A stretch of 64,000 bases of DNA. It comes from Gigantopelta aegis. Lineage: Eukaryota; Mollusca; Gastropoda; Neomphalida; Peltospiridae. The stretch spans positions 36,659,306 to 36,723,305 of the forward strand of contig NC_054712.1 in NCBI RefSeq assembly GCF_016097555.1. Reading direction: 5' to 3'. The position numbers and the translations under genes are program-made. The notes beneath the pieces are model-generated. The model had not been told where the DNA came from. It made no database searches and worked only from the letters and a program-made list of their open reading frames with translations. This document shows, one piece after another, positions 2,378 to 48,839 of this stretch (positions within the stretch are counted from its first letter, which is position 1; every line of letters begins with the position of its first letter).

Positions 2378-2451
2378 TTAATTACAACTAAAATAGTGAT
2401 TCCTCGATATTTCCTATAATTCCTCTTAACTAACACACATTTACTCTTCTC

Positions 2452-2761
2452 CAGTGGACAAGCGCTCGCTCGATGCGCGGTCGGTCTGGGATCGATCCCC
2501 GTCGGTGGGCCCATTGGGCTATTTCTCGTTCCAGACAGGGAACCACGACTGGTATATCAAAGGCCGTGGTATGTACTACCCTGTCTGTGGGATGGTGCAT
2601 ATAAAAGAGCGCTTGCTGCTGATCGAAAAGAGTAGCCCATGAAATGGCGACAGTGGGTTTCCTCTCTCAATATCTGTGTGGTCCTTACCCATATGTCTGA
2701 CGCCATATAACCGTAAATAAAATGTGTTGAGTGCGTCGTTAAATAAAACATCTCCTTCTTC
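2452..2761 (+). mobile_element. tRNA-derived SINE, family A
   Basis: Starts inside the tRNA-like head (agcgctcgctcgatgcgcgg), passes the B-box-like ggatcgatcccc, the body (caaaggccgtggtatgtact) and the 3' end cgtcgttaaataaaaca. Reverse-strand translations of this body give the recurrent MFYLTTHSTHF-type open frames, which are artefacts. A duplicate is at 12403-12711. Confidence 0.85.
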
Positions 2762-3000
2762 TACACCCAGGAACACGTTATTCTACTGTTACGATGTATA
2801 AAACCCACCGTTGACTATGGGCTGTTTTGTAAATTATTTCCTTCCTTTCCATTCGTGGTATGGAATTTTACGCATATAATACGGGATAATATACTGTACG
2901 GAATAGTTATAGCCAATTATAAACTGCAGCGTACAACAATGAGTTGGTTGCATGCAAAAATCTATATTATTATTTTTGATTCTACCTTGCTATGGATAGG

Positions 3001-3165
3001 CTTGTGCGGGGGTGGGGGGTCTAGACTATGGCGAAAAATATTTCGGTGTGTGTGTGTGTGGGGTGGGTCAAAACAATACATTAACAAACAAATTTCCTTG
3101 AACAGTGGGTTGCGCCCCCACCCCCACCCCCACCCCACCCCCGAATACGCGCCTGATGGTATGCG
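3001..3165. mobile_element. Small G-rich MITE remnant
   Basis: G-rich start, a gtctagact motif, aaaaatatttcgg, and an end at acgcgcctga. The same motifs appear at 34274-34411, where the element is intact with inverted ends caggcgcgtg/cacgcgcctg, and at about 59520-59715. This copy has expanded G and C runs. Confidence 0.5.
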
Positions 3166-3540
3166 ATATTTCTCGCACTGCCTCGCCTTAAGTTTTCTAG
3201 TATCTTAGCAACTTTGTTGTTGGTCTGCAGTATCTATATACGAGTAAAGCATTTTTATTATACAGTATGACTTCTCTAGTAATTAAGACAGGGAATTTGA
3301 GCCTTAATCTGTTGTCTTTGCCGTTCTTCGCAGTACGCTGTGATGTGGTTGTGATTGTGGTTACACTTAAAAGTATCAAGTACAGGTAGTTGTTGACGAA
3401 GAGACAAGGCACTGCATATTTAATAACCTTCACCTTTGAATACGTACGTTTCATGTCTGGAACACGGTATTCACAATGTACAGTTAATTTCATGCGTACA
3501 TTATTATTTTCATTTCGTCTTATTTTCGTTCTTTTATCCA

Positions 3541-3808
3541 ATTAAGGTTCAAGCACGCTGTCCTGGACACACACACACACACCCACCCACCCACACACAC
3601 ACACACCTCAGTCAGCTGGTATGTCTGTCCAGGACAGTGGGTTAGTTGTTAATTGTTAGTGGTTAGTGAGAGAGAAGAGGGTGTAGTGGCCTTACACCTA
3701 CCCACTGAGTCGTTAAAACTTACCTCTGGGTGGGAGCCGGTACCGGGCTGCGAACCCTGTACCTGCCAGCCTTATGTCCGATGGCTTAACTACGACACAA
3801 CCGAGGCA
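3541..3808 (-). mobile_element. tRNA-derived SINE, family D
   Basis: Reverse strand. The tRNA-like head (cctcggttgtgtcgtagtta) is at the high-coordinate end, followed by a B-box-like ggttcgcagcccgg, a cccactgtcctggac body and the terminal ccttaattgg. It contains a (CA)n stretch at 3570-3606 that is longer and different in the duplicate at 18993-19312. Confidence 0.75.
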
Positions 3809-3857
3809 CGTTGATAAGGAGACTGTCCTGAGATTGTTTTGCATCAGTTATAATACT

Positions 3858-4112
3858 CATTGGGCTATTTCTCGCTCCAGCCAGTGCACCACGACTGGTA
3901 CCTCAAAGGGCGTGGTATGTGCTATCCAGTCTATGGGATGGTTCATATAAAAGATCCCCTGCTTCTAATGAAAAAGAGTAGCCCATGATGTGGCGACAGC
4001 GGGTTTCCTCTCTCAATATCTATGTGGTCCTTAACCATGTGTCTGACACCATATAACCATAAATAAAATGTGTTGAGTGCGTTGTTAAATAAAACATTTC
4101 CTTCCTTCCATT
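3858..4112 (+). mobile_element. SINE family A, 5' truncated
   Basis: Begins at attgggctatttctcgctcc and ends with the ttaaataaaacatttccttcc tail. The duplicate at 19353-19600 preserves an 11-bp target duplication, ccattataata. Here the same flanks have decayed. Confidence 0.8.
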
Positions 4113-4692: not shown

Positions 4693-5285
4693 CAATCTAA
4701 TTAAAATTAGCTCCACTATTACATGTGGATCTAAAGACAGCCAGTTGGAGCTCATGTCCACCAATCAAAACCTTACTTGCAGAATCCTGCCAGTGATTTA
4801 AAACTAACAACCCTGCGTAGTCCCCAATGTCCAGGTAACATTTCGTCTGTAAATAATAATTTAAATATTGACCAATCACATTTCGCCTTTTATAACGTTA
4901 TTTGGGAGCATACAAATTCTAAAGATATCGGGCGAGTCTATTTTAGTGGCCGCAGTACAGCGAACCATACCAATACGTACGGGGTGGGTTATCAGTCTTC
5001 AATTTTACATTAAAAATTATTTATTTATTTATAAAATTTAAAAAAACTAAATCAGTCTTCAGTTTTACATTACAAATTATTTATTTTATAAAATAAAACA
5101 TGTTTTAAGGCATTCGTAATTCACACGAAACATGTCGTATACCCTCAGGATAATTCGGAATGTTTTCAAATTATTTTTAAATCACTGGCAGGATTCTGCA
5201 AGTAAGGTTTTGATTGGTGGACATGAGCTCCAACTGGCTGTCTTTAGATCCACATGTAATAGTGGAGCTAATTTTAATTAGATTG
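4693..5285. mobile_element. Foldback element with long inverted repeats and 9-bp target duplication, copy 1
   Basis: 593 bp. The ends are caatctaattaaaattagct and its exact reverse complement. Near-perfect inverted arms of about 107 bp cover 4693-4803 and 5178-5285. The flanks tgatattct at 4684-4692 and 5286-5294 are an exact 9-bp target duplication that interrupts the MITE body. Long inverted repeats with 9-bp duplications are typical of Mutator-like (MULE) elements. That assignment is inference because no transposase is present. The centre is A/T rich with a local tandem repeat of atcagtcttca (4989 and 5051). A second copy is at 30586-31106. Confidence 0.9.
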
Positions 5286-5423
5286 TGATATTCTAAACAA
5301 GAAAATATATTTAATATATGATTTTAGTCAACAAAAAGGCCAGAAGCAAACTCAGAACAGTCCCTTTAAACCTACAAGCTCGGGTATACTTTTATTATTA
5401 TAAAACCTTTCAGAATAAGTCGG

Positions 5424-5737
5424 GGCGGGACGTAGTTCAGTGGTAAAGCGCTCGCTCGATGCGCGGTCGGTCTGGGATCGATCCCCGTAGTTGGGCCCAT
5501 TGGGCTATTTCTCGCTCCAGCCAATGCAGCACGACTGGTACATCAAAGGCCGTGTATGTACTACCCTGTCTGTGGGATGGTGCATATAAAAGATTCCTTT
5601 CTGCTGATCGAAAGGTGTAGCCCATGAAGTGGCGACAGCGGGTTTCCTATCTCAATATCTGTGTGGTCCTTAACCATGTGTCTGACACCATATAACCATA
5701 AATAAAATGTGTTGAGCGCGTCGTTAAATAAAACATT

Positions 5738-5768
<31 letters not shown>
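5424..5768 (+). mobile_element. Full-length tRNA-derived SINE, family A
   Basis: The best complete copy. It has the head ggcgggacgtagttcagtgg (A box region), a B-box-like gggatcgatcccc at 5472, the body, and a (ttct)n tail at 5738-5768. Family A, B and C heads differ but share the region from accacgactgg to cttttatatgc. Confidence 0.88.
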
Positions 5769-5769
<1 letters not shown>

Positions 5770-5936
5770 TCCAAGACTACAGTTTATTCATAACCATCTT
5801 CCGACATGTTAGAAATCGTTACCAAGACAAGTCAAATGAAAAAAAAAAAGAGAGAATTTATTTTATGACAAAGATGACACAAACCATATACTCGTCTGGT
5901 TAGTGTTTTTACCAAAACGACAAAAATGTCAAACTA

Positions 5937-6044
5937 AAGCACTGGCTGGAACGAGAAATAGCGCAATGGGTCCACTGACGAGGATCGATCCCAAAGCGAC
6001 CACGCATCAAGCGAGCGCTGTACCACTGGGCTACGCCTCGCCAG
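5937..6044 (-). mobile_element. SINE head fragment, family A or B
   Basis: Reverse-strand tRNA-like head only, from cactggctggaacgagaaat to gggctacgcctcgcc. The body and tail are missing. Confidence 0.75.
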
Positions 6045-6205
6045 TATATAATAAAGAGTATTATATACTCTTTATATGTAACTATAGTATTGGTATTAGG
6101 GGTTTCTGTTTGGGGGTATCTGTGGTGTAGAGTTGCTGTGACGTTAAAGTATCAGAATATTAGTCTTGAGTCATTGCTTAATTCATTTCAACTTATTTTT
6201 GTACT

Positions 6206-6445
6206 TATATCCAATTAAGGTTCAAGCACGCTGTCCTGGGCACACACACACCTCAGCTATCTTGGCTGTCTGTTCAGGACGGTGGGTTAGTTGTTTAGTG
6301 AGAGAGAAGAGGGAGTAGTGGTCTTACACCTACCCATGGATTCGTTACAACTCGCTCTGGCTGGGAGCCGGTACCGGGCAGCGAAACCAGTACCTACCAG
6401 CCTTATGTCCGATGGCTAAACCATGACACCATTGAGGTCGGTAGT
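6206..6445 (-). mobile_element. SINE family D
   Basis: Reverse strand. It starts at ccaattaaggttcaagcacg, has the body gtctgttcaggacggtgggt, and ends at the head (accattgagg). It lies in copy 1 of block Y and is not seen at the matching place in Y'. Confidence 0.75.
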
Positions 6446-6879
6446 CTTGAATCTAAGCTTTACACGTTTTATAAACACAGGGGCTCAAACTTCTGTGTGT
6501 TGTTTTAGGACATGACCAAAACACACAAAACCCCTCCAAACAACAGCATTGATGCCTGTCATTAATACATATTTGAATTTTGTATTTACTGCACTATTTT
6601 CATGAAGGTACACTCGAGACTAAATTAGCAGCCGTTCAGTACATACGTATCGCAAAATCCAAGGCAGTATCGAGTCACCAACAGCTCTCCCCTTATTGAT
6701 ATTGATATACTGACTCAAGCTATATCTAGCTAGATGAGTATCCGGCGTGTGTCCCCAGTTATTTTTATTCAAAGTACAGCTCTGCTCCTTCACTAATATC
6801 GTTTTGTAATGCCAAGGCGCGAATTTCAATTGTCCATAATCCGCATCAGTCACTATCTATGCAAATGAGTTGAGTAGAT

Positions 6880-23227: not shown

Positions 23228-26200
23228 AATTACATATCTAATTTGCTAGTTGCATAATAAAGATTCATTAAGTTGTGTTTTAAAATGAACAAAATATGTC
23301 ATAAACTACGTGTCCATAAATAAATACAACATAAATAATTCCATGTACCAAATGGATAGGATCAATGAAAATTATATTTCCAATACGTCAATACCAGGGC
23401 CGTATCCTTCGGGGGGGCAGGGGGTGGGGTGGAGTTTGGGACTTTTGCCCCCTGAGAATCTCACCTTTTTTTTTGTACTCCAGAAAATAGCATACACATC
23501 TCAGGGTTTAATTTGTATAGTGTTTCATTTGTTTATAAAAAGTAGTGCCCTCCCTAGGATTATGATCAGGGTACGGCCCTAAATAAAAAGTAATTTTATA
23601 AACATTACGTGGTAATGTCTAGGCCTGGATTCGAACACATAGCTGCCTGGCCTAAGGTTTAGCGAGTCGAAGGATCGATCGTCCTCGGTGGACTCAGTTT
23701 TTGCTCATCCCAACCAGTGTTACACGACTGGTATACCATAGGTCGTGATATCTACTGTATTATCTATAGGAAAGTGTATATAAAATATCCATGTAGCCTG
23801 TATACCTTATTTTACCTAATTATATTTCATTGTTTTTTTTTAATTTACTGGGGGGGGGGGGGGGTCTTCTGCTTTTCTGCAAATAATAGTATAAAAAGTC
23901 CTTAAATATTGATAATAATGGAGTTGAGGGAGGTCTATGTTAATTACACCCTTTATGATCCCAAGTAACAAAAGTACTTGCCTGTTTAATTCCGTTTTTG
24001 TCATATCTAAATAACCAGCTGGGAAGTGCTCCAGCAACATGGTTATACGGCGGGAAACAGTGAAATCTGCTCTTGCCAAATTTATCTGTGGAATTCTTCA
24101 GCTGAACTCCCAGGCTACCCATACATTCACCAAACGCCTCGTCCCCATATGTTCCAGTCTGTCGACACACTTTGGAATCATTTCCAGCCCTGCCAAACCG
24201 CCTCAGCGCCTCTTTGCTAACAACAAACCCAGACCCGCCACTCGAATAGTCGTATTTGTTAATCGCTTTGAAGTGATGTCCAAAATAAATCGGTTCATTG
24301 GTATCTTCCTCGGACAGAAGATATCTCAAATTTTCCATGATGACGTATGTATCGTCATCCGTCTTCAGGAACCAATCAGCGTCGTCGAAATGGTGTTTGT
24401 ACACGTAGTGGAATCCTCCAAGGGTTTTCTCAGTGAGATGGTTTCTGCCTTCCGATACGTTGATGGCGACGATGCCATATTCTTCGTTGGCTACGGAACT
24501 GATGATGACGAGTTTGTTACATCGTCGGCCCCAAGTTCGCTTCAGGTATTTGACACGTGATTGTACGGTCAACGGCATCGTCATGACCCAACACAACACC
24601 CTCACCCGTTCGGCTAATTCCCTGGCAACTGCGTCATCATCTGAATAAGATTTAAAAAATACAATTGTGTAAAGAGAGACCAGAAAATGGGTAACCCATG
24701 GGGAATTCATTAATGATCACCAAATGCAACACCCTCACGCTAGTTCCCTGGCCACCGTGTCGTCATTTGAATAAAAAAAAATTAAATGCAATTTATTAAA
24801 AGAGAGAGACCAGATAATGTGGAATCAACGGGAAATTAATTAATCACCACACATCACAATACCATCACGCTTTCGACTAATTCTCTAACCACAGTGCCCT
24901 CATTTTAATAAGATTAAGAAGGAAATGTTTTATTTAATGACGCACTCAACACATTTTATTTACGGTTATATGGCGTCAGACATATGGTTAAGGACCACAC
25001 AAATATTGAGAGAGGAAACCCGCTGTCGCTACTTCATGGGCTGCTCTTTTCTATTAGCAGCAAGATATCTTTTATATGCACCATCCCACAGACAGGATAG
25101 TACATACCACGGCCTTTGTTACACCAGTTGTGGAGCACTGGCTGGAAATAGCCGAATGGGTCCACCAACGGGGATCGAGCGAAAGCTTTACCACTGGGCT
25201 ACTTCCCGCCCCTTAAGATTAAGAAAACAAACATTTATTAAAATAGAAAGACTAAAAAATGGGAAATTAATTAATTAATTAATTGTTCGACAAAAATAGA
25301 AATACTGAGCGATATGAGTCTCCTGTTCAAAAACTTCACCCTATCCAAGTTGTAGAGAGATGTGACTTTGCCCTATAACATGGACCTCGCTTCACCCTTG
25401 TATGACCTTGCTAAATAATCTTGATTATGAATTACTATATCAGCCATCACTAGTCAAGGTCAGGGCTGTTCAGTCAGATCGAGCGGAAAAACGTCCGCTA
25501 GACTGGTTTATGCGCTTCACGGTAAACCAAATGGCGACGTCGGGAACCAATTAAATAATTTGCGAATGTTAGCGAAACGTTCGCTGGCTGAACGTATGCC
25601 AGATGTTAGTCGATAAAACCATTAACTCAGAATTTATTAGGGAGAATCAAATGGACGACATGACAAGGTCGTGATGACATGTTACTATGGATATTACTGG
25701 TCAAGATCAGCTAGTACTTTGCTGCGTTGTTACGACTTTTTCAGTCATGAATAGCGCTCTAATCTTGCCGGAAGTCGTCTTCACGACTAGAGATCTCGAG
25801 GTAAAAAAAGAAACCGACTTCACTTTCACGACACGAGATTTCACTACACAGATGTCATTTGCCAATGAAATCCATGTTAAATTACCCAACTTTAAATGAA
25901 GATGATTGGCAATAGAACGGGTTTTCGTTGGCACTAACGACATATATCCATTGCGAACATACATTATATATATATGGATTTATGTTAGCTCCACAACTGA
26001 GAACATTTTCGTCTCAGTTGTTTTGCTATATGACCATATCTGGCTGTAGTACCGATCCGATCAGGTGGTTTAAGAACCGATTCAAACCGGCCGCCTGTTT
26101 GGTACACACCCATGTCCCTAGCCCGAGTACTCTGACTGTAAGAGAGCTAGACGGACATTTTGGAATTTTAACTCTCTTACAGTCATAATACTCGGGGTAC

Positions 26201-28225: not shown

Positions 28226-28396
28226 ATTAACATGGCAGCACTATTAAGAGTCGTTTTTGATAACTGAAAGCAAACATTACTTACATTTTATTGTTTAAAG
28301 CATCCATTTTCTAACATCCGAAGTGTTTCTGGTCATTCTGGTGTTTATAATATCACGACATGCATTTTTAAATTTCATTTTAAACACGCAGGGGAG

Positions 28397-30403
28397 ACAT
28401 TATTGTTAATATCAGCACTCTATATTCTTATAATATGCACATATTTGGCATCACTGGAACGGGAATGATCCACTATACCCTTCAGTATTAATAATTGGAA
28501 GATTTTCCCATTTGTTATGTAACTAGAGGCCAAAAGGTGGCGCTTTTTGAAGAAAAGTGAACATTTTAGACGTTTTGCAATAAAATCGCCACAGTGTGCA
28601 TGAAAGGTGAATGAATCAGGTAATCTTAGCTTAGAATATATAAAAAAGGAACCTGGAATAATTTTGGTCGTACTTTATTAGTTTTGGGACACTAATAATG
28701 CAGTTTAACCCCTCCATATCCATCACCAAAATTTCACTAAATTCATTTTTCTGTAAAAGTACCGCTAAGTGAAATGTATCATTTAATTATTTCCTGTAAA
28801 ATGCTGTTAAGCAGGTTTTTTGTGTTCATATGACACATTTCATTTCTTTGGTGAACATATTAACCTTTATATTAATCCTACCTAACTGTTTTTATCTAAT
28901 TATTATGTTTGTGCAGGGACCATCTCAAGGCGATCCTTTAGATCCACCTAATGGTACAACTCAACTGGAAAGCAGTCTAGGTGTCATCGTCACTAGCCCT
29001 GTTTGATTCATCATCTGTGTCCTCCTCGTCGCTGTATTCCTCATCTTCAGAATCAGTTTCTGTGTTATCCTGATCTATGGTCTCAAGGATGTCTACAAGT
29101 TCTACTGGGAGTACATCCTTCTCACTCCACTTTGGTTCCAGCATCCCATTGTCATTTGTCCATCCATGTCCATCGGTTGGGTCTGGTATGGGTGGTTGTG
29201 GGATATAAGCACGTTTCCATACCCCAACCTGAACGTTTACCCGTTTCAGGTGCTCCATCAGGGTGCTTTGGCATGGGGGCATGGAAGCAAAATCAGTCTT
29301 CCTTGATTGTCTCAGTGTCCCATCGTCTCTACATTTTAAAAGCAGGCGAACATGGCGACGGTTATTTACTTTCTTTAGTCTTTTCTCCCCGTACATTCCG
29401 CAGGTGAAATGTTCTATCACCGTTGCCACTTCTCCAGGTATTGTCCATGCTTCCCCATGTTCTGCGAATGCTTTCTGGAAGGTATCGTTTTTCATCAACA
29501 TTTTGAGGGGTTTGACCTTTCCTTTTGATTTAAAAGCACTGGTGCTGTCACACCACGTGAAGCAATGCAAACCCAGCAGTGCTGAGCACAGTATTGGAGT
29601 ATGTGACTCTGCTAAGTCACTAATGTCAATGCAACGCTTTGTGCCTCCCTTTTCCCTTTCGAACAGAATTTGCAGGCCATTCAGCCGATGTGCATGGTGC
29701 AGCAAGATAACAAAAGATATCTGTATCAGGGCTTTTCACTCGCACAGTTCGAAAACCTCGCTGCTTTGCATATGCACAATACAACACCACTCTTGTGTCC
29801 GTTTCTTCCTGTGTTGATTTAAGGGCTTCAATTTCTTTCACTGAGACATTTTTCCCATCAGAAGTCAATTGGTAAGCCGTGCCTTCACAGATAAGAGTCA
29901 CCTCTCGACCAGTTAGGACATGGACAGAACTGGGACTACTCCACGTTTCCAATAAAATCTGTACCAGCTGTTTTTCATTGTCACCATTGGGCAAGAAGGA
30001 TTTCCTGTCCTTTGGCCGTTTCATTTTCCCACTACTTAGAATCAGCTTCTCCCCAACTCCTCGATGCTTCCTTTCCATTGCTTTTATTGACTGAGGACTG
30101 TACATGTCAGTGCTGAACACACAAAGAATACTTTGTTTTCAATGCTGGATCTAAAGGATCGCCTTGAGATGGTCCGTGCACAAACATAATAATTAGATAA
30201 AAACATTGTGGCGGTTTTATTGCAAAAAGTAAATAAAATTCACTTTTCTTCAAAAAGCGCCACCTTTTGGCCTCTACTTACATAACAAATGGGAAAATCT
30301 TCAAATTATTAATACTGAAGTGTAGAATGGATCGTTCCCATTCCATTGATACCAAATATGTGCATACTATAAGAATATAAAGTGCTGATATTAACAATAA
30401 TGT
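28397..30403. mobile_element. DNA transposon with inverted repeats of over 200 bp
   Basis: Outer arms 28397-28610 and 30196-30403 are inverted copies (acattattgttaatatcagc, ctttttgaagaaaagtgaa, gcaataaaa-cgccac). A second inverted block, 28889-28946 and 30146-30205 (accatctcaaggcgatcctt), continues the arm. On the left the two are separated by 278 bp absent on the right. The interior carries the minus-strand frame 30120-28977. No target duplication is evident, so the real ends may lie slightly outside. The superfamily is not assigned. Confidence 0.82.
28977..30120 (-). pseudogene. FEN/XPG-like protein of a transposon-associated family, frameshifted
   Basis: Two overlapping frames. 30120-29626 reads MYSPQSIKAMERKHRG, EETDTRVVLYCAYAKQ and VKSPDTDIF. 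29705-28977 reads HHAHRLNGLQILFE, LLGLHCFTWCDSTSAFKSKG and an acidic C-terminus (DSEDEEYSDEEDTDDE). A one-base insertion in the T run near 29718 explains the switch. I recognise an uncharacterised metazoan family with EEADTR, SPDTD and HCFTGCDSTS motifs. The order acidic helix, S-x-D-x-D, then helix-hairpin-like GCDxTxxxxGKGK resembles FEN/XPG nucleases; this is inference. Here the usual G of GCD is W. The N-terminal part is missing; a tgtgtgttcag acceptor precedes 30120's neighbourhood. Confidence 0.7.
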
Positions 30404-30585
30404 TGTAGCATGGAGCCAAACTCATGGCCTGTACACCTATTGAGTACCAATGGTTTTCCTATTAACATAATTTTTCTGAATTACTAGACCCATAGGTATA
30501 AAAATATACCAAAGAAGTTAAGATATGGCGGAGGTGCACGGTGGCCCCACCTAGCCCATGGACTAAACTTATTATTCATTTCCAA

Positions 30586-31106
30586 CAATCTGATTAAAAT
30601 TAGCTCTACTGGTATATGCCAGTAGATCTAACAGCATTGCATGGACTCCCATGTCCATGTGAAATTTCATCTATAAATAACAATTTAAATATCGACCAAT
30701 TACACTTCGTCTTTTATAGCGTCATTCGGAAGCATACAAATTCTAAAAATATCGGGCGAGACTTATTTATGCAATAGGCGAACTTGGAAAAGTGCAGTAA
30801 TAAACTCTGGATTGTATACTGGTATAAACAGATTTCATGGCTATACCATCATTGTTTTTTTCGTCTTGAAACGAATTTTATATAAAATTTTATATTGAAA
30901 TTAGTTTCCGGCATACTTCGCAATTCACCCGAATCATTTTGTATACCCTCGGCATAATCCCGAATGTTTTCAAATTCTTTTCAAATTACTGGCATGATTT
31001 TGCAAGTAAGGTTTTGATTGGTCGAATGAAAGGTCAACTGGACATGAGCTCCAATGGGCTGCTGTTAGATCCACATGTAATAGTGGAGATAATTTTAATT
31101 AGATTG
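30586..31106. mobile_element. Foldback element with 9-bp target duplication, copy 2
   Basis: 521 bp. The ends are caatctgattaaaattagct and, reversed, caatctaattaaaattatct. It is flanked exactly by catttccaa at 30577-30585 and 31107-31115. The interior matches 4693-5285 (atcgggcgaga, ataccctcggcataatcc, gcaagtaaggttttgattgg). The arms are more diverged than in copy 1. Confidence 0.9.
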
Positions 31107-35093: not shown

Positions 35094-36330
35094 GAAGAGA
35101 GGGATAGAGAATTCCAGTTAGAAAAATTAAAAGTGGAACATGAGTTAAAGTTGAATACTGAAGAAGTTAGACGGGAGGCAGGAAATGGTTTTAACATGTC
35201 GGAGGCTTATAGATCAGTGCCTGTATTTGACGATCAGGAGGTAGATGTTCTTCCAACTTTTTGAACGGGCCGCTAAGCAGCTAAATTGGCCGCAGTCTAA
35301 GTGGACATTGTTAGCCGTGTCTAAGTTTAAGGGGAAGGCTAGTGTAGCTTATAATTCAATGAGTGATGAGCAAGCAAGTCAGTACGACCTAGTTAAGGCG
35401 GCAGTGTTGAGGGCGTATGAATTACGACCTGAGGATTATCGTTTACGGTATAGCGAGTTGAGAAAAACGCAGGGTCAGTCTTATAGTGAGTTTGTGGCTA
35501 AGAAGGCAGGGATGTTTGATAAATGGGTGGTGTCTCATCAGGTAGTGTCATATACCGAGTTACGGGAGTTGTTGATCTTACAGGACATTAAAAATGGATT
35601 ACCAGTTAGCTTACGTATTCATTTAGAGGATCGTGATGTCAAAAAGATAGAGGAGGCAGGCATAGTGGCAGATGATTACGTGTTAATACACAAAGCTCAG
35701 GCAGTACAGGGTAGCTCTTTACAACAGGGTGATAAGAAGAAATTTCAGCCAGGTTTTTCCCGGGAAAGTAACTATCGGGGAGAGTCATTTAGTTGGTCAG
35801 CTAGTCAGGCAAGGAATGTACCTGGTGGGCAAAGTAAGGATAAACCTGCATTATCAGCCAAGGCACGAACCTTTCGTCCACATTGCAGTTACTGTAAAAA
35901 GGATAACCATCTTGTTGGGGACTGTTTTAAAAGGAAACGCGATAATGCGCAAGTGGTCGGTTTAGTGAGGTCAGCTCCGCTAGCGAGAGAGTTAATGGTT
36001 AGTCCCATGGCAGAGAAAGTAAACCCGTATGTGTCCACTGGTATGGTTTGTGATGCGAAACAAGAATTGAGTCCTAAGGCAATATCAATCTATCGAGATA
36101 CCGGGTGTAGTCAGTCGCTGATAACATCAGAGTGTTTAGCTGGTATTGAGAATTCAGATACAGGACGTAGTTTGGCTTTAACCTCGGTTACTGGAGAACA
36201 CATGGTTGTCCGGTTACATAACGTTTTCTTGTGTTCGAAGTTTGTGACGGGACCAGTCGTTATGGGTGTTGTGAAGGACTTGCCTGTTGAAAACATAGGA
36301 GTTTTGTTGGGTAATGATTTGACTAGTTAG
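35094..36330 (+). pseudogene. Retrotransposon gag and protease (broken)
   Basis: The reading frame EFQLEKLKVEHELKLN to VPVFDDQEVD (35109-35245) is followed, after a one-base shift near 35246, by FFQLFERAAKQLNWPQ and a capsid-like helical region. In the 361-residue frame from 35245, the CX2CX4HX4C zinc knuckle is at residues 214-227 (CSYCKKDNHLVGDC). The protease active site reads DTGCS at 285-289 where DTGAS is usual, followed by LLGNDL. A TAG at 36328-36330 interrupts the frame, which otherwise continues in phase into 36355-36624. Flanking SINE and microsatellite DNA shows no promoter. Confidence 0.85.
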
Positions 36331-36624
36331 TGTTGTCAGCCGAAATGTGACCAATTGTTAATTAAAGACAGCCCTTTACCAATAGAAGAGAGTGAGGTTG
36401 ATGAGATTAGATATCCTGCGTGTGTAAAGACTAGGGCTATGGCCAGAAGGGTAACACGAGACCCAAAGGATATTTGTGATTTGTCTGACACGTGTGTGAG
36501 CCATGAAATTGGAGTGGATGAGGTTATCAGTAAAATGGTAGATAAGTCAACTGAGGAATTAAATGTGGAAATGAACCAGTTGTGGGTGATAGAGTGGACT
36601 TACCTTGTAATAGACAAGAGTTAG
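36331..36624 (+). pseudogene. Linker between protease and integrase
   Basis: Same frame as gag-protease after the stop. It contains PACVKTRAMARR, typical of the variable linker in such elements, and ends at TAG 36622-36624. Another frame here reads NRQELVLEQGVD, so a frameshift lies near 36580. A 19-bp direct repeat (agagcagggggttgatcca, 36627 and 36646) shifts the frame again. Confidence 0.7.
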
Positions 36625-36658
36625 TTCTAGAGCAGGGGGTTGATCCAAGAGCAGGGGG

Positions 36659-37825
36659 TTGATCCAAGATCCAAAATTGTTGGCAGCTCGCACTACTTTG
36701 TTAACTGAGGGTGAGATGGAGGATCAGAAGTCAGGTTATGATATGGACATGGGAGTATTAATGAATAAGAGAGTTAGAGATAGGAGGTGGCAGGCAACCG
36801 AACTAGCTAGGAAGCAACTGAGCTATGCTCAGAGCAAAATAAAATCAGTGTTTCATAGGAAGGCTAGGAGTCGGGAATTTAAACCAGGGGATAAGGTGCT
36901 GCTGTACCTTCCCATTAAACGGGGTTCTGTGCAGAACAGGTATTTCGGGCCCTATGTTGTGCGCAAACGGGTTAATGAGACAGGGTATGTGATAAACACT
37001 ACTGATAGGGTTAGGAAAAGTAGGTATTGTCACATCAATTTGCTAAAAGGTTATTTTGACAAACTGCCGATAGTTCCAGAGTTACCGGTCCAAATTGAGA
37101 GTCACTCAATTTCCTGTGATGACGTCAAGACTGCGAAGATCAAATTAACCAACAGCCAGATTCTAGCAGACTTGAGCCCCCAGCGAGCAAAGTTGACTAC
37201 GTTGATTCAAGACAAAGTTTCCATTTGTCAGGACCTTCCAACGGTTACCAATACCTTAATCCAAGATGTGCGCTTGGAACCCAACGCTACACCGAGTCGA
37301 CAGCATGCCTATCGGAGAAAACCTGTAAAACGTGCGACACTGAAAAAGAAGGAATCGAAGTTCCAGTGGTCAGACGAATGCGAGAAGTCATTCAACCGTC
37401 TCAAGATGCTCTCCTTGTCTCGCGTGATGGCAGCACCAGACTACCGAATGCCTTTCAAGCTAGCTGTGGATGCCAGTGACGTGGGAGCTGGAGCTGTGCT
37501 GTTCCAGGAAGACGAAAATGGACTGGACCATCCTGTAAGTTTCTTCTCCAAAAAATTTGACAAACACCAGGTGAACTATTCCACTATAGAGAAGGAAGCT
37601 TTGGCCATGGTACAAGCTCTGAAGCATTTTCAGATCTACATGAAATCGGCAGTGCATCAAGTGGTGGTCTTTACTGATCATAATCCGCTTACCTTCATTC
37701 ACAGAATGAAAGCCACCAACCAGAGAGTTTTGAGATGGAGTCTTCTTCTGCAGGAATTCCCAATTACCATTGAACATATCAAGGGCACTTCTAATGTAAT
37801 CGCTGATGCCCTGTCCCGAAGTTGA
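36659..37825 (+). pseudogene. Integrase C-terminus joined to RT/RNase H remnant
   Basis: 388 codons open. First comes the integrase C-terminal region: ELARKQLSYAQSKIK, FKPGDKVLLYLPI, the GPY/F module (RYFGPYVV), then YCHINLLKGYF. This is followed directly by the RT N-terminal region (SICQDLPTVTNTLIQDVRL, HAYRRKPVKR), then a jump to FQWSDECEKSFNRLK and MPFKLAVDASDVGAGAVLFQ, and RNase H with EKEALAMV, FTDHNPLTF and VIADALSRS. The YxDD catalytic box of RT and the integrase zinc and DDE core are absent. All four RNase H acidic residues are present. The frame has stayed open across both deletions. Confidence 0.87.
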
Positions 37826-39375: not shown

Positions 39376-40967
39376 TCAAAAGAATTTAAGGGTCAAAAAT
39401 GTATAACCAAATAAGTTTCAGAGTGTATTAGATTGATGATGTAAACTACACCAAATTTTTTATTTATTGTTCCATATTTACAAAAACCCACAAATAAACG
39501 TCACTGTATACAAGAAAGTCACATGACATGCTGTCAGAGTTGAAGGTTGTCAAACATGGATTTTACACATTAGAACATTCGTTTAATAGTGTGTGAATCC
39601 ACCCCTGGCGCGAATACACTCGACACATCGTTGCCTCATGCTGTTGATCAAACGTCTGAAGAACTCTTGGGGAATGGCCTGCCACTCTGCCATAAGAAGT
39701 TGACCCAGATCATGAAGGTTGGCCGAGGGGCATGGTTATCCCGAACTCTCCTGCCTAATTCGTCCCAGGCGTACTCTATTGGGGCCAAGTCAGGCGAATA
39801 TGCTGGCCAATCCATCCTGGCGATACCTTGTTGTCTGAGAAAGTCCGTTACCACCCTGGCGCGGTGGGGTCTGGCATTGTCATCCTGCAGAACTGCCCCG
39901 CCGCCAATCTGCTGAAGGCCTGGGAGAACCAACGGCCGCATAATCTCATTCAGATAGCGGATTCCATTCAGATTGCCATCCACCACATAGAGGGGGGTCC
40001 TGTGGTGGATAGAGATGCCGCCCCACACCATGACGCTGCCACCACCGAACCGGTGACGTTGTCTAACGTTAACGTCAGCGAAGCGCTCCCCAGGACGTCT
40101 GTAGACACGAACCCGACCGTCGTTGAACTGGAGACTAAACCTGGACTCATCAGTGAACATCACTCGACCCCATTGAACACGTTGCCACCGCAGATGAAGC
40201 ATGCACCAGTGACGTCTGGCCGTTCTGTGACGTGGTAGGAGTGGTGGTCGAACAGCCTGGCGACGGCAGCGTAGATTATTGGCTCTCAGACGATTGCGTA
40301 TGGTTTGATCAGACACTCGAGTTCCAGTCGCAGTCCGCAGATTGTCACGTAATCGGCGTGCAGTGGTTGTGCGTTGACGTAGAGCCATATTGGTGATGTA
40401 GCGGTCCTCTCTATTTGTAGTGCTTCGGGGTCTTCCCGAACGTGGACGATTTCGAACAGAATTCGTTGCTTGGTACCGTTGCCACAGTCCGCCAACGACA
40501 CTCTGACTGACACCAAGTCTCAGAGCAACATTTCTTTGCGTATTGCCATCCTGAAGCCAAGCAATAGCCCTTCCTCGATCTTCGATAGTCAGTTGAAGTC
40601 ATACCATTGTCGAATTTGGAGTGTGCACCGTACACGAACGCAAGCTCCAATTATACGGATATTCAGCATTGGGAACATGGAATACACGTGCAAAGCGTGA
40701 AAATGAAGCGCTTTGTGAAAAAGCAAGTTATGGGCACTTAGCAGACCTTTCGCTTTCGCCCTAATTTACGTGCAAATGTAAGCATGTTTTCGCCATTAGA
40801 ACTAGTCGACAGTGTCAATGACAGTGGATTTTAATTCATTTATGGGTTGCTTAGACCCACTTTCGTCAAAATGGAACAATACCATGCGTAACATTATGGT
40901 CTAGCTAAAATAACTGACATTCAAAAAATAATGTCGAAAATATCGTCTGACCCTTAAATTCATTTGA
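39376..40967 (-). mobile_element. Tc1/mariner transposon
   Basis: Inverted ends tcaaaagaatttaagggtca (39376-39395) and tgacccttaaattcatttga (40948-40967), two mismatches, next to TA-rich flanks. It contains one transposase frame on the minus strand. Length 1.6 kb, usual for the group. Confidence 0.88.
39583..40607 (-). pseudogene. Tc1/mariner (DDE) transposase with two lesions
   Basis: The frame from ATG 40607 has a TGA as its third codon (40601-40599), then stays open through the DNA-binding part (TIEDRGRAIAWLQDGNTQRN, LRLGVSQSVV, RPRSGRPR). It continues into the catalytic domain: MFTDESRFSL, VMVWGGIS, LQDDNARPHRA, DWPAYSPDLAPIEYAWDELG, so the three acidic positions are present. A frameshift near 39725 gives the end at 39648. 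The alternative frame continues NLHDLGQLLMAEWQAIPQE and RARGGFTHY to TAA 39585-39583, the expected C-terminus. A transposase of about 340 codons with one nonsense and one frame mutation. Met 40388 is internal. Confidence 0.88.
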
Positions 40968-47397: not shown

Positions 47398-47785
47398 GAG
47401 TGGCTCATTACGATTTTATAATCTATATTGCTTGTATGTATATGCTGCATTTTATTCTGTTGTAATGAGGTGATGCTTTAATAAACTATCTCTCTGTCTG
47501 TCTGTCTAACTGACCTTATCCTTGTAAAATAAATTACCAACGTCCTTCATTTAGATCACTGTTCTGAACTCTTCCTTTAAAAGTATCTTAGAGTGGCCCA
47601 TTACAATTTTATAATCTATATTGCTTGCATGTATATGCTGCATTTTATTCTGTTGTAATGAGGTGATGCATTAAGCTATCTGTCTGTCTGTCTGTCTAAC
47701 TGACCTCGTACTTTTAAAATTTCCATCGTGCTTCCCTTGGATCATCGTTTTGAAATCTTCCTTCAAACGAATCTTTCGATGAACC
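47398..47785. repeat. 193-bp tandem duplication covering the GPCR 3' end
   Basis: tgctgcattttattctgttg occurs at 47443 and 47636. The second copy runs into the last 72 coding bases of the receptor gene; the first contains a decayed version (accaacgtccttcatttaga against ccatcgtgcttcccttggat). Confidence 0.82.
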
Positions 47786-48808
47786 GTCAATACTGAAAAC
47801 AAAGTTTTCCTTAGTGGACTGTTTTGCCGACTTTCTCTTCATTCCCACAAAAGACTTGAATGCATTCAGGAATTTTCGATCCTTGAATGCATATATCACA
47901 AAATTCATTCCCGAATTTAGGTAACCCAGGACCATGAAAGCCTTAATTAACTTGGGATTTACAGACGTACCGTATCCAATGAGGATGATTAAAAAACTTG
48001 GTGTCCAACAAACGAAGAAAATCCCGAATACAAGCATGAACATTTTGATGGACTTAATTTTATTGCGGTTCCACCAGGACATTTTATCGTGGTGGAACAG
48101 CTGCCACTGACTGTCTCTGCGCTGCTGTGGTATAGCTTCCCTGATGAGTAACCCGTAGATCACAGCAGTTATGAGGCAACACAGCAGATACAATGGACAC
48201 AATGTGAACTGTCTGTAGTTTGCCGGAAGAAGCTGAAACGTTTGGCATTGCCTGTTTTTATTCCATAGATTATAGTACAGCGGGACGGTTCCTATTGCGA
48301 ACGACAGGATCCATGTTCCGGCAATGATGGCGGCCACCGTGGCAACTCTGCATTTGGTGGAATAATGCAGCGGGTATTTGATGAAAATGTATCTATCAAC
48401 CGATATCGCAATCATAGTCAGGACGGAGTTGGACACGAACGTGAAGAGAAACACGTAACGAATGAGACAGACGTATTTGTGATCGTCCAGGGCCTCCTGG
48501 AACGGCGGATACAAGTCGCTGGAGTAGAACGGTATTATCAGTCCGGTAAAAAAGTCCGCCACGGCAAGGGACACAGTGTACATGTTGCATCGGGTTCTCA
48601 GATCCGGCGTCACACAGACTGCCACGATGGTGAAAACATTCCCAGTGCAGATGAATATCATTGTCAGAGCGTTGGCCACAATTATTCCAAACTGACCTGG
48701 TGATGACTCTAGAGTGCTATCAGTGCTATCACCGTAATCATATTGATAATGAAATGAAGGCAGATCTGCAAAAGGCTGGTTTGATAGCGTCGTGTTAATA
48801 TAATCCAT
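47714..48808 (-). CDS. Class A (rhodopsin-type) G-protein-coupled receptor, orphan
   Basis: 364 residues in one exon, within the usual size range. Seven hydrophobic segments. An N-glycosylation site (NTT) lies near the start. Class A landmarks: GNV in TM1 (N57), LAVAD in TM2 (D85), Cys114 and Cys188 for the extracellular disulfide, DRY at 138-140, CWTP at 267-270, and NSGMNFVIY in TM7, where the Pro of NPxxY is Phe (303). It resembles invertebrate adenosine/amine-type receptors in TM1-3, but the ligand cannot be read from sequence. It signals at the plasma membrane through G proteins, a family role. ATG 48808 follows agaaagaag. A possible acceptor (ttgtag|gcctac) just upstream suggests a separate 5' UTR exon. 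Confidence 0.92.
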   Translation of the reverse strand: MDYINTTLSNQPFADLPSFHYQYDYGDSTDSTLESSPGQFGIIVANALTMIFICTGNVFTIVAVCVTPDLRTRCNMYTVSLAVADFFTGLIIPFYSSDLYPPFQEALDDHKYVCLIRYVFLFTFVSNSVLTMIAISVDRYIFIKYPLHYSTKCRVATVAAIIAGTWILSFAIGTVPLYYNLWNKNRQCQTFQLLPANYRQFTLCPLYLLCCLITAVIYGLLIREAIPQQRRDSQWQLFHHDKMSWWNRNKIKSIKMFMLVFGIFFVCWTPSFLIILIGYGTSVNPKLIKAFMVLGYLNSGMNFVIYAFKDRKFLNAFKSFVGMKRKSAKQSTKENFVFSIDGSSKDSFEGRFQNDDPREARWKF

Positions 48809-48839
48809 CTTCTTTCTCCAGTAGGCCTACAACGTTTAA

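Follow-up and report, generated by a model that had tools for sequence, protein, structure and literature searches.

The remnant element at positions 28388..30565 of the window (the whole 64,000-nucleotide stretch analysed here, C14:36659306-36723305 of the 1.149 Gb, also given as 1.15 Gb, genome of Gigantopelta aegis) is probably a dead copy, with internal deletions, of a DNA transposon of the Academ type (AcademX-like). We regard it as a transposon remnant because the same terminus is shared by seven independent insertions and because relatives in the genome are flanked by 3-bp target duplications, while the assignment to Academ is drawn from duplication length, the encoded nuclease, the inverted repeats, the size, and the lack of a helicase match. 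What an earlier note on this DNA had put forward as a possible undescribed system is thereby recast as a defective copy within a large transposon family, of which one or more open reading frames are still intact in the same genome; overall, the interpretation given in that note is partly supported.

The observation as first made, of a protein with three acidic motifs lying between inverted arms of over 200 bp, is partly confirmed, in that the feature is real and was wrongly bounded. Outer inverted arms (28397-28597 and 30203-30403; 201 nt, 91% complementary) and an inner inverted block (28885-28947 and 30145-30207; 98% over 60 nt) do flank the motif-bearing protein, and the arm alignment scored 349.8 compared with a best of 33.0 among 200 base shuffles. 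These arms had been taken for the transposon ends, which they are not, as similarity in other copies runs outward past them to a shared terminus that lies at 30565 in the window; judged from those copies, the true right end, TAGTCCATG..., is thus found 162 nt beyond the right arm as first drawn. Alignment with other copies sets the limits of the remnant (minus strand, that of the gene) from a truncated left (3') end to an intact right terminus. The left arm (28388..28947, plus strand) is the 3' non-coding end of the element without its outermost ~190 nt, and includes a stretch of ~292 nt (28594..28884, plus strand) that is absent from the right arm and at least partly present in other copies. 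The right arm (30145..30565, minus strand) is an inverted copy of the 3' end region which carries the real terminus and in which two internal stretches, of ~292 nt and ~35 nt, are gone. Since the left arm breaks off at ~28388, the left end of the element is lost, and the target duplication is therefore unreadable in the window copy; a search for a duplication at the arm ends as first drawn gave matches at chance level only, because those positions are not the ends of the element.

A DNA search of the genome with the element found 12 candidates, the window among them, which together gave 35 matching pieces, and ten other copy loci were retrieved, two of which contain runs of N. Similarity in these copies extends ~195 nt outward from the arm end as first drawn, to a common terminus, TAGTCCATGGG(C/T)TAGG, beyond which the flanks differ. 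In the window this terminus, TAGTCCATGGG, occupies 30555..30565 and reads inward on the minus strand; its counterpart in intact relatives is TAGTCCATGAGC. It is present in 8 of 10 aligned rows (L045-L050, L053, and the right side of the window) and is not reached by L051 and L052, and given that L048 and L049 are duplicates, the number of independent insertions sharing it is seven. Arms on both sides, implied by the original description, are not the usual state of the element: a complete second arm occurs in none of the ten other loci (none found in eight, a partial one in L045, and only ~15 nt in L053). Most copies instead display a fixed 3' end with variable 5' truncation, a pattern that would also suit a host repair gene that had been captured or retrotransposed and that carries an inverted repeat by chance. 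This origin is highly improbable, given that no poly(A) was seen at the shared terminus and that intact relatives have the same terminus at both ends together with 3-bp duplications. Within one of the copies (L045) there is also a nested LTR-element insertion. In another, L047, the family copy is adjoined by inverted arms (2413-3892 and 5329-6808; 669, 321, and 496 nt, 100% identity); these may be a recent palindrome or an assembly artefact, the locus containing 200 N.

The family was also searched for in the genome at the protein level. From 1,652 first-look candidates, 108 matches were scored, all listed at E <= 0.001, a count which includes two pieces of the window and some loci twice. Members of the subfamily of the window copy (>=79% identity) were seen at five further loci, of which two lie on C9 and the others on C6, C15, and C12, all partial; among relatives at a greater distance (25-50% identity) there are long open frames of up to 1,553 codons. 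The longest of these belongs to an intact relative of 5,887 bp (C7:5351441-5357327), found as two contiguous pieces (L072 and L085), in which a single ORF of 1,553 codons ends in the FEN/XPG-like domain and is followed by a 3' non-coding end of ~720 nt. This element starts with TAGTCCATGAGC and ends with its reverse complement (TAGTCC ends), has a terminal inverted repeat of ~130-140 nt (142 aligned columns, 70%), and is flanked on both sides by TGA, a 3-bp target duplication. A relative on C2 (13766371-13772774) has termini of the same type, with TAGTCCATG at both ends and a duplication of CAG, and one in-frame stop in its match. The 3-bp duplication rests on both of the two relatives with both termini seen, out of four tried; the 5' end of a copy on C8 was not found in the piece retrieved. 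A second copy on C7 (L073:1-3355 and L090:591-1200; C7:2.196-2.202 Mb) is 99.7-99.8% identical to the intact C7 element over the parts retrieved and, though recent, stops 4 and 27 nt short at its two ends.

When the intact 1,553-codon ORF was compared with Pfam at E up to 1, no family was matched, helicase included, and a conserved region upstream of the nuclease domain was likewise free of Pfam matches. The nuclease had been proposed to be either mobile cargo or part of the transposition machinery, and it is the cargo alternative that falls away, as the domain belongs to the long ORF of the element itself.

In the window, what is left of the nuclease gene lies on the minus strand at 28977..30120 and reads through 380 codons with one frameshift near 29710. 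All three motifs originally described are present in this one gene (30120-28977): EETDTR (29791..29808, minus strand), which resembles the ExE/D of FEN/XPG and is the third acidic motif; SPDTD (29719..29733, minus strand), resembling DxD, the fourth; and HCFTWCDSTS (29538..29567, minus strand), the fifth, which corresponds to G-C/S-D in FEN/XPG and reads TGCD in relatives and WCD in the window copy. With one shift allowed, the gene region is stop-free for 380 codons, a length reached by none of 210 other window segments of equal length on both strands (best 377, in a tandem array). The gene is not complete, its N-terminal part being absent at the right-arm junction (~30145-30120), along with the region of the first D of the FEN/XPG acids, in addition to the frameshift. 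Comparison of the window remnant with Pfam, PHROGs, NCBIfam, and PDB sequences gave no useful match, and an Rfam search of the window gave no match. Taken by itself the window protein does not support the nuclease assignment: its score against FEN, 18.4, was exceeded by at least 10 of 100 shuffles, and it failed both the strict FEN motif pattern and a looser pattern with GxG. A pattern of the acids only is present in the window protein, and also in 145 of 20,000 core shuffles and 3,071 of 20,000 whole-protein shuffles.

The FEN/XPG likeness of the domain is nonetheless probable when judged from the sequences of the family as a whole, because of the conserved order of acids and a profile alignment. 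Alignment A1 (first row L072:1495-2643, minus strand) was built from 15 of 18 usable rows out of 24 family loci (near-copies L062, L064, and L071 were omitted, and six loci contained no stretch reaching 150 residues); several of its rows are near-identical, so that the effective number of sequences is smaller, HHalign having kept 9 of 19 in a similar set. Gaps excluded, the acids of A1 are conserved at D25 (IIDG; 8/8), D66 (VIFD; 10/10), E163, E164, and D166 (EEADTR; 12/13, 12/13, and 13/13, respectively), D189 and D191 (EDTD; 14/14 and 13/14, respectively), and D247 (TGCD; 15/15). The family alignment thereby contains the seven-acid FEN/XPG order D, D, E/E(D), D/D, D, and the resemblance in motif order to flap nucleases pointed out from the window alone holds across the family. 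Against a five-member FEN/XPG panel, four members of which were provisional sequences, HHalign gave A1 a score of 32.8 (E 0.0013, probability 18%), compared with a best of 23.8 among 200 column shuffles and with 14.1 and 13.0 for reversed controls. VFD, EEAD, DTD, and GCD were paired with their FEN/XPG counterparts, and the first Asp lay outside the aligned stretch. An earlier family alignment scored 31.6 compared with a best of 21.8 among 60 shuffles, the probability being 13-18% over both runs.

It may be argued that the domain is not of the FEN/XPG fold and that an unrelated transposon protein has come to resemble it in its acid motifs by chance, as there is no sequence-level match in Pfam or PDB (A1, used as a profile against PDB sequences, returned no FEN/XPG chain at E up to 10) and the HHalign probability is modest. 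We consider this improbable, in that the acid motifs occur in FEN order and at roughly FEN spacing across diverged relatives, and the profile score lies above all 200 shuffles and both reversed controls. The probable FEN/XPG-like domain shares with FEN1, EXO1, XPG, and GEN1 the order of acidic motifs, the G-C-D motif, and, in most relatives, a subsequent G-K-like stretch; it differs from them in forming the end of a transposon polyprotein and in having no significant plain sequence match.

The nuclease of AcademX transposons is of the XPG type. Within the Academ superfamily, the account in PMC10045372 (citing Kojima 2020), as far as its passage on these groups goes, describes AcademX as encoding a nuclease and generating duplications of 3 or 4 bp, and AcademH as encoding a helicase and generating duplications of 9 or 10 bp. 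A transposon with this combination of nuclease and 3-4 bp duplications is hence already in print, which removes the grounds for calling the system undescribed. The elements surveyed here resemble AcademX in having a transposon-encoded nuclease, 3-bp duplications in the relatives that fall within the 3-4 bp reported in that passage, and terminal inverted repeats in the C7 relative. The length of the C7 relative, 5,887 bp, is also near the mean of 5,565 bp that the relevant part of PMC10294476 gives for the Academ elements of bivalves, where they are abundant. The window copy is unlike AcademX in being deleted and frameshifted and in having long fold-back arms. AcademH, of the same superfamily, differs from the relatives described here, which have 3-bp duplications and, in the intact ORF, no helicase match. 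Lineages of Kolobok (KolobokP, KolobokE, and KolobokD) are likewise DNA transposons with an extra nuclease; according to the portion of PMC9587614 concerned, their nucleases are of other folds (His-Me finger, lambda-exonuclease-like, and DnaQ-like). Among the papers searched, none combined Academ, XPG, and transposase as whole words.

Several observations count against the Academ-type reading. The part of PMC10294476 that treats molluscs has Academ nearly restricted to bivalves and nearly absent from other molluscs; eight of ten other copy loci are without a second arm, unlike a tidy two-ended transposon; and there is no Pfam match and no FEN/XPG chain among PDB sequences, the HHalign probability is low, and the window protein scores within shuffles. 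A separate, unnamed superfamily which is not Academ, with a transposase joined to an XPG-like nuclease, TAGTCC ends, and 3-bp duplications, has to be weighed as a rival. None of the libraries names any part of the 1,553-residue protein, nor the window remnant, and the likeness to Academ was drawn from published descriptions, yet nuclease, 3-bp duplications, and length all fit AcademX or Academ as portrayed in the parts of PMC10045372 and PMC10294476 concerned, and we hold such a superfamily to be unlikely. A shade less credible still is the fuller proposal of a distinct, unnamed animal superfamily in which a transposase and a FEN/XPG-like flap nuclease are fused in one polyprotein and from which fold-back derivatives repeatedly arise, these being copies with a head-to-head duplication of one end that at times takes in part of the nuclease gene. 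If that proposal were true, the element would come equipped with the nuclease for handling the intermediates of transposition, and failures of that nuclease would give rise to long inverted repeats in the host genome.

For the preferred, AcademX-like transposon, the middle of the intact ORF (residues ~420-1120 in the C7 relative) would encode the transposase, which may bind the ends, excise the element, and insert it with a 3-nt stagger, and flaps or branched strands left where the ends are cut or joined may be trimmed by the nuclease domain. The window copy appears to have lost the transposase part, the left terminus, and the region around the first catalytic Asp of its nuclease, and to have acquired a frameshift; it is therefore expected to be immobile and to yield no active protein. 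Its right arm seemingly repeats almost all of the 3' non-coding end in inverted orientation, to ~30 nt before the stop codon, and most likely arose by fold-back or template switch during failed or interrupted repair or transposition. Such an event is the simplest cause of the long arms, which look like a secondary fold-back feature and not normal inverted repeats. Large inverted arms of 410-895 nt were found in 5 of 24 family loci (L069, L079, L080, L082, and L083), although these loci carry only 1.5 kb of flank and further arms may be missed; head-to-head pieces of the nuclease gene occur in all of the five except L069.

Alternatively, the long arms may be the original terminal inverted repeats of the subfamily, of ~750 nt, with one-armed copies being later fragments. 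The right arm does exist elsewhere, in that L053 matches it at 94% over 364 nt and has the same loss of ~35 nt, from which it follows that the right-arm form is older than the window copy alone. This alternative deserves to be kept in mind but is the less likely of the two, since the inverted repeats of the intact C7 relative are only ~130-140 nt, one-armed copies outnumber two-armed ones, and inverted arms extend into the gene in other family members. The points of interest are the reason for a flap-nuclease-like domain in a cut-and-paste element, and whether this domain accounts for both the duplications of 3 bp and the fold-back arms that recur; the recurring fold-back forms and the nuclease fusion merit specialist attention.

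Relatives were also sought beyond this genome. Viral contigs scanned with peptide patterns and phage records searched at the protein level revealed none. Degenerate motif scans returned 0, 1, 1, and 0 stretches in viral contigs and 22 stretches in prokaryote genomes, and translation or tblastn led us to reject the 22 prokaryote and two viral stretches as relatives; the best tblastn E was 0.12 among the 23 stretches checked together, the remaining viral stretch having been checked separately.

Other repeats and genes lie around the element in the window. Adjoining its right end is a separate repeat (30586-31106) with internal inverted pairs, related to 4693-5285. An open 316-codon transposase of the Tc1/mariner type (DDE_3, HTH_Tnp_Tc3_2) is encoded at 39648-40598 (minus strand), and LTR-retroelement pieces lie at 35245-37825 (plus strand), comprising one gag-like ORF that matches SCAN and another ORF bearing reverse-transcriptase RNase H domains; ORFs similar to these lie within family copy L045. 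Two further ORFs are likely host genes, one Fringe/galactosyltransferase-like (23940-24716, minus strand) and the other encoding a rhodopsin-type 7TM receptor (47714-48826, minus strand).
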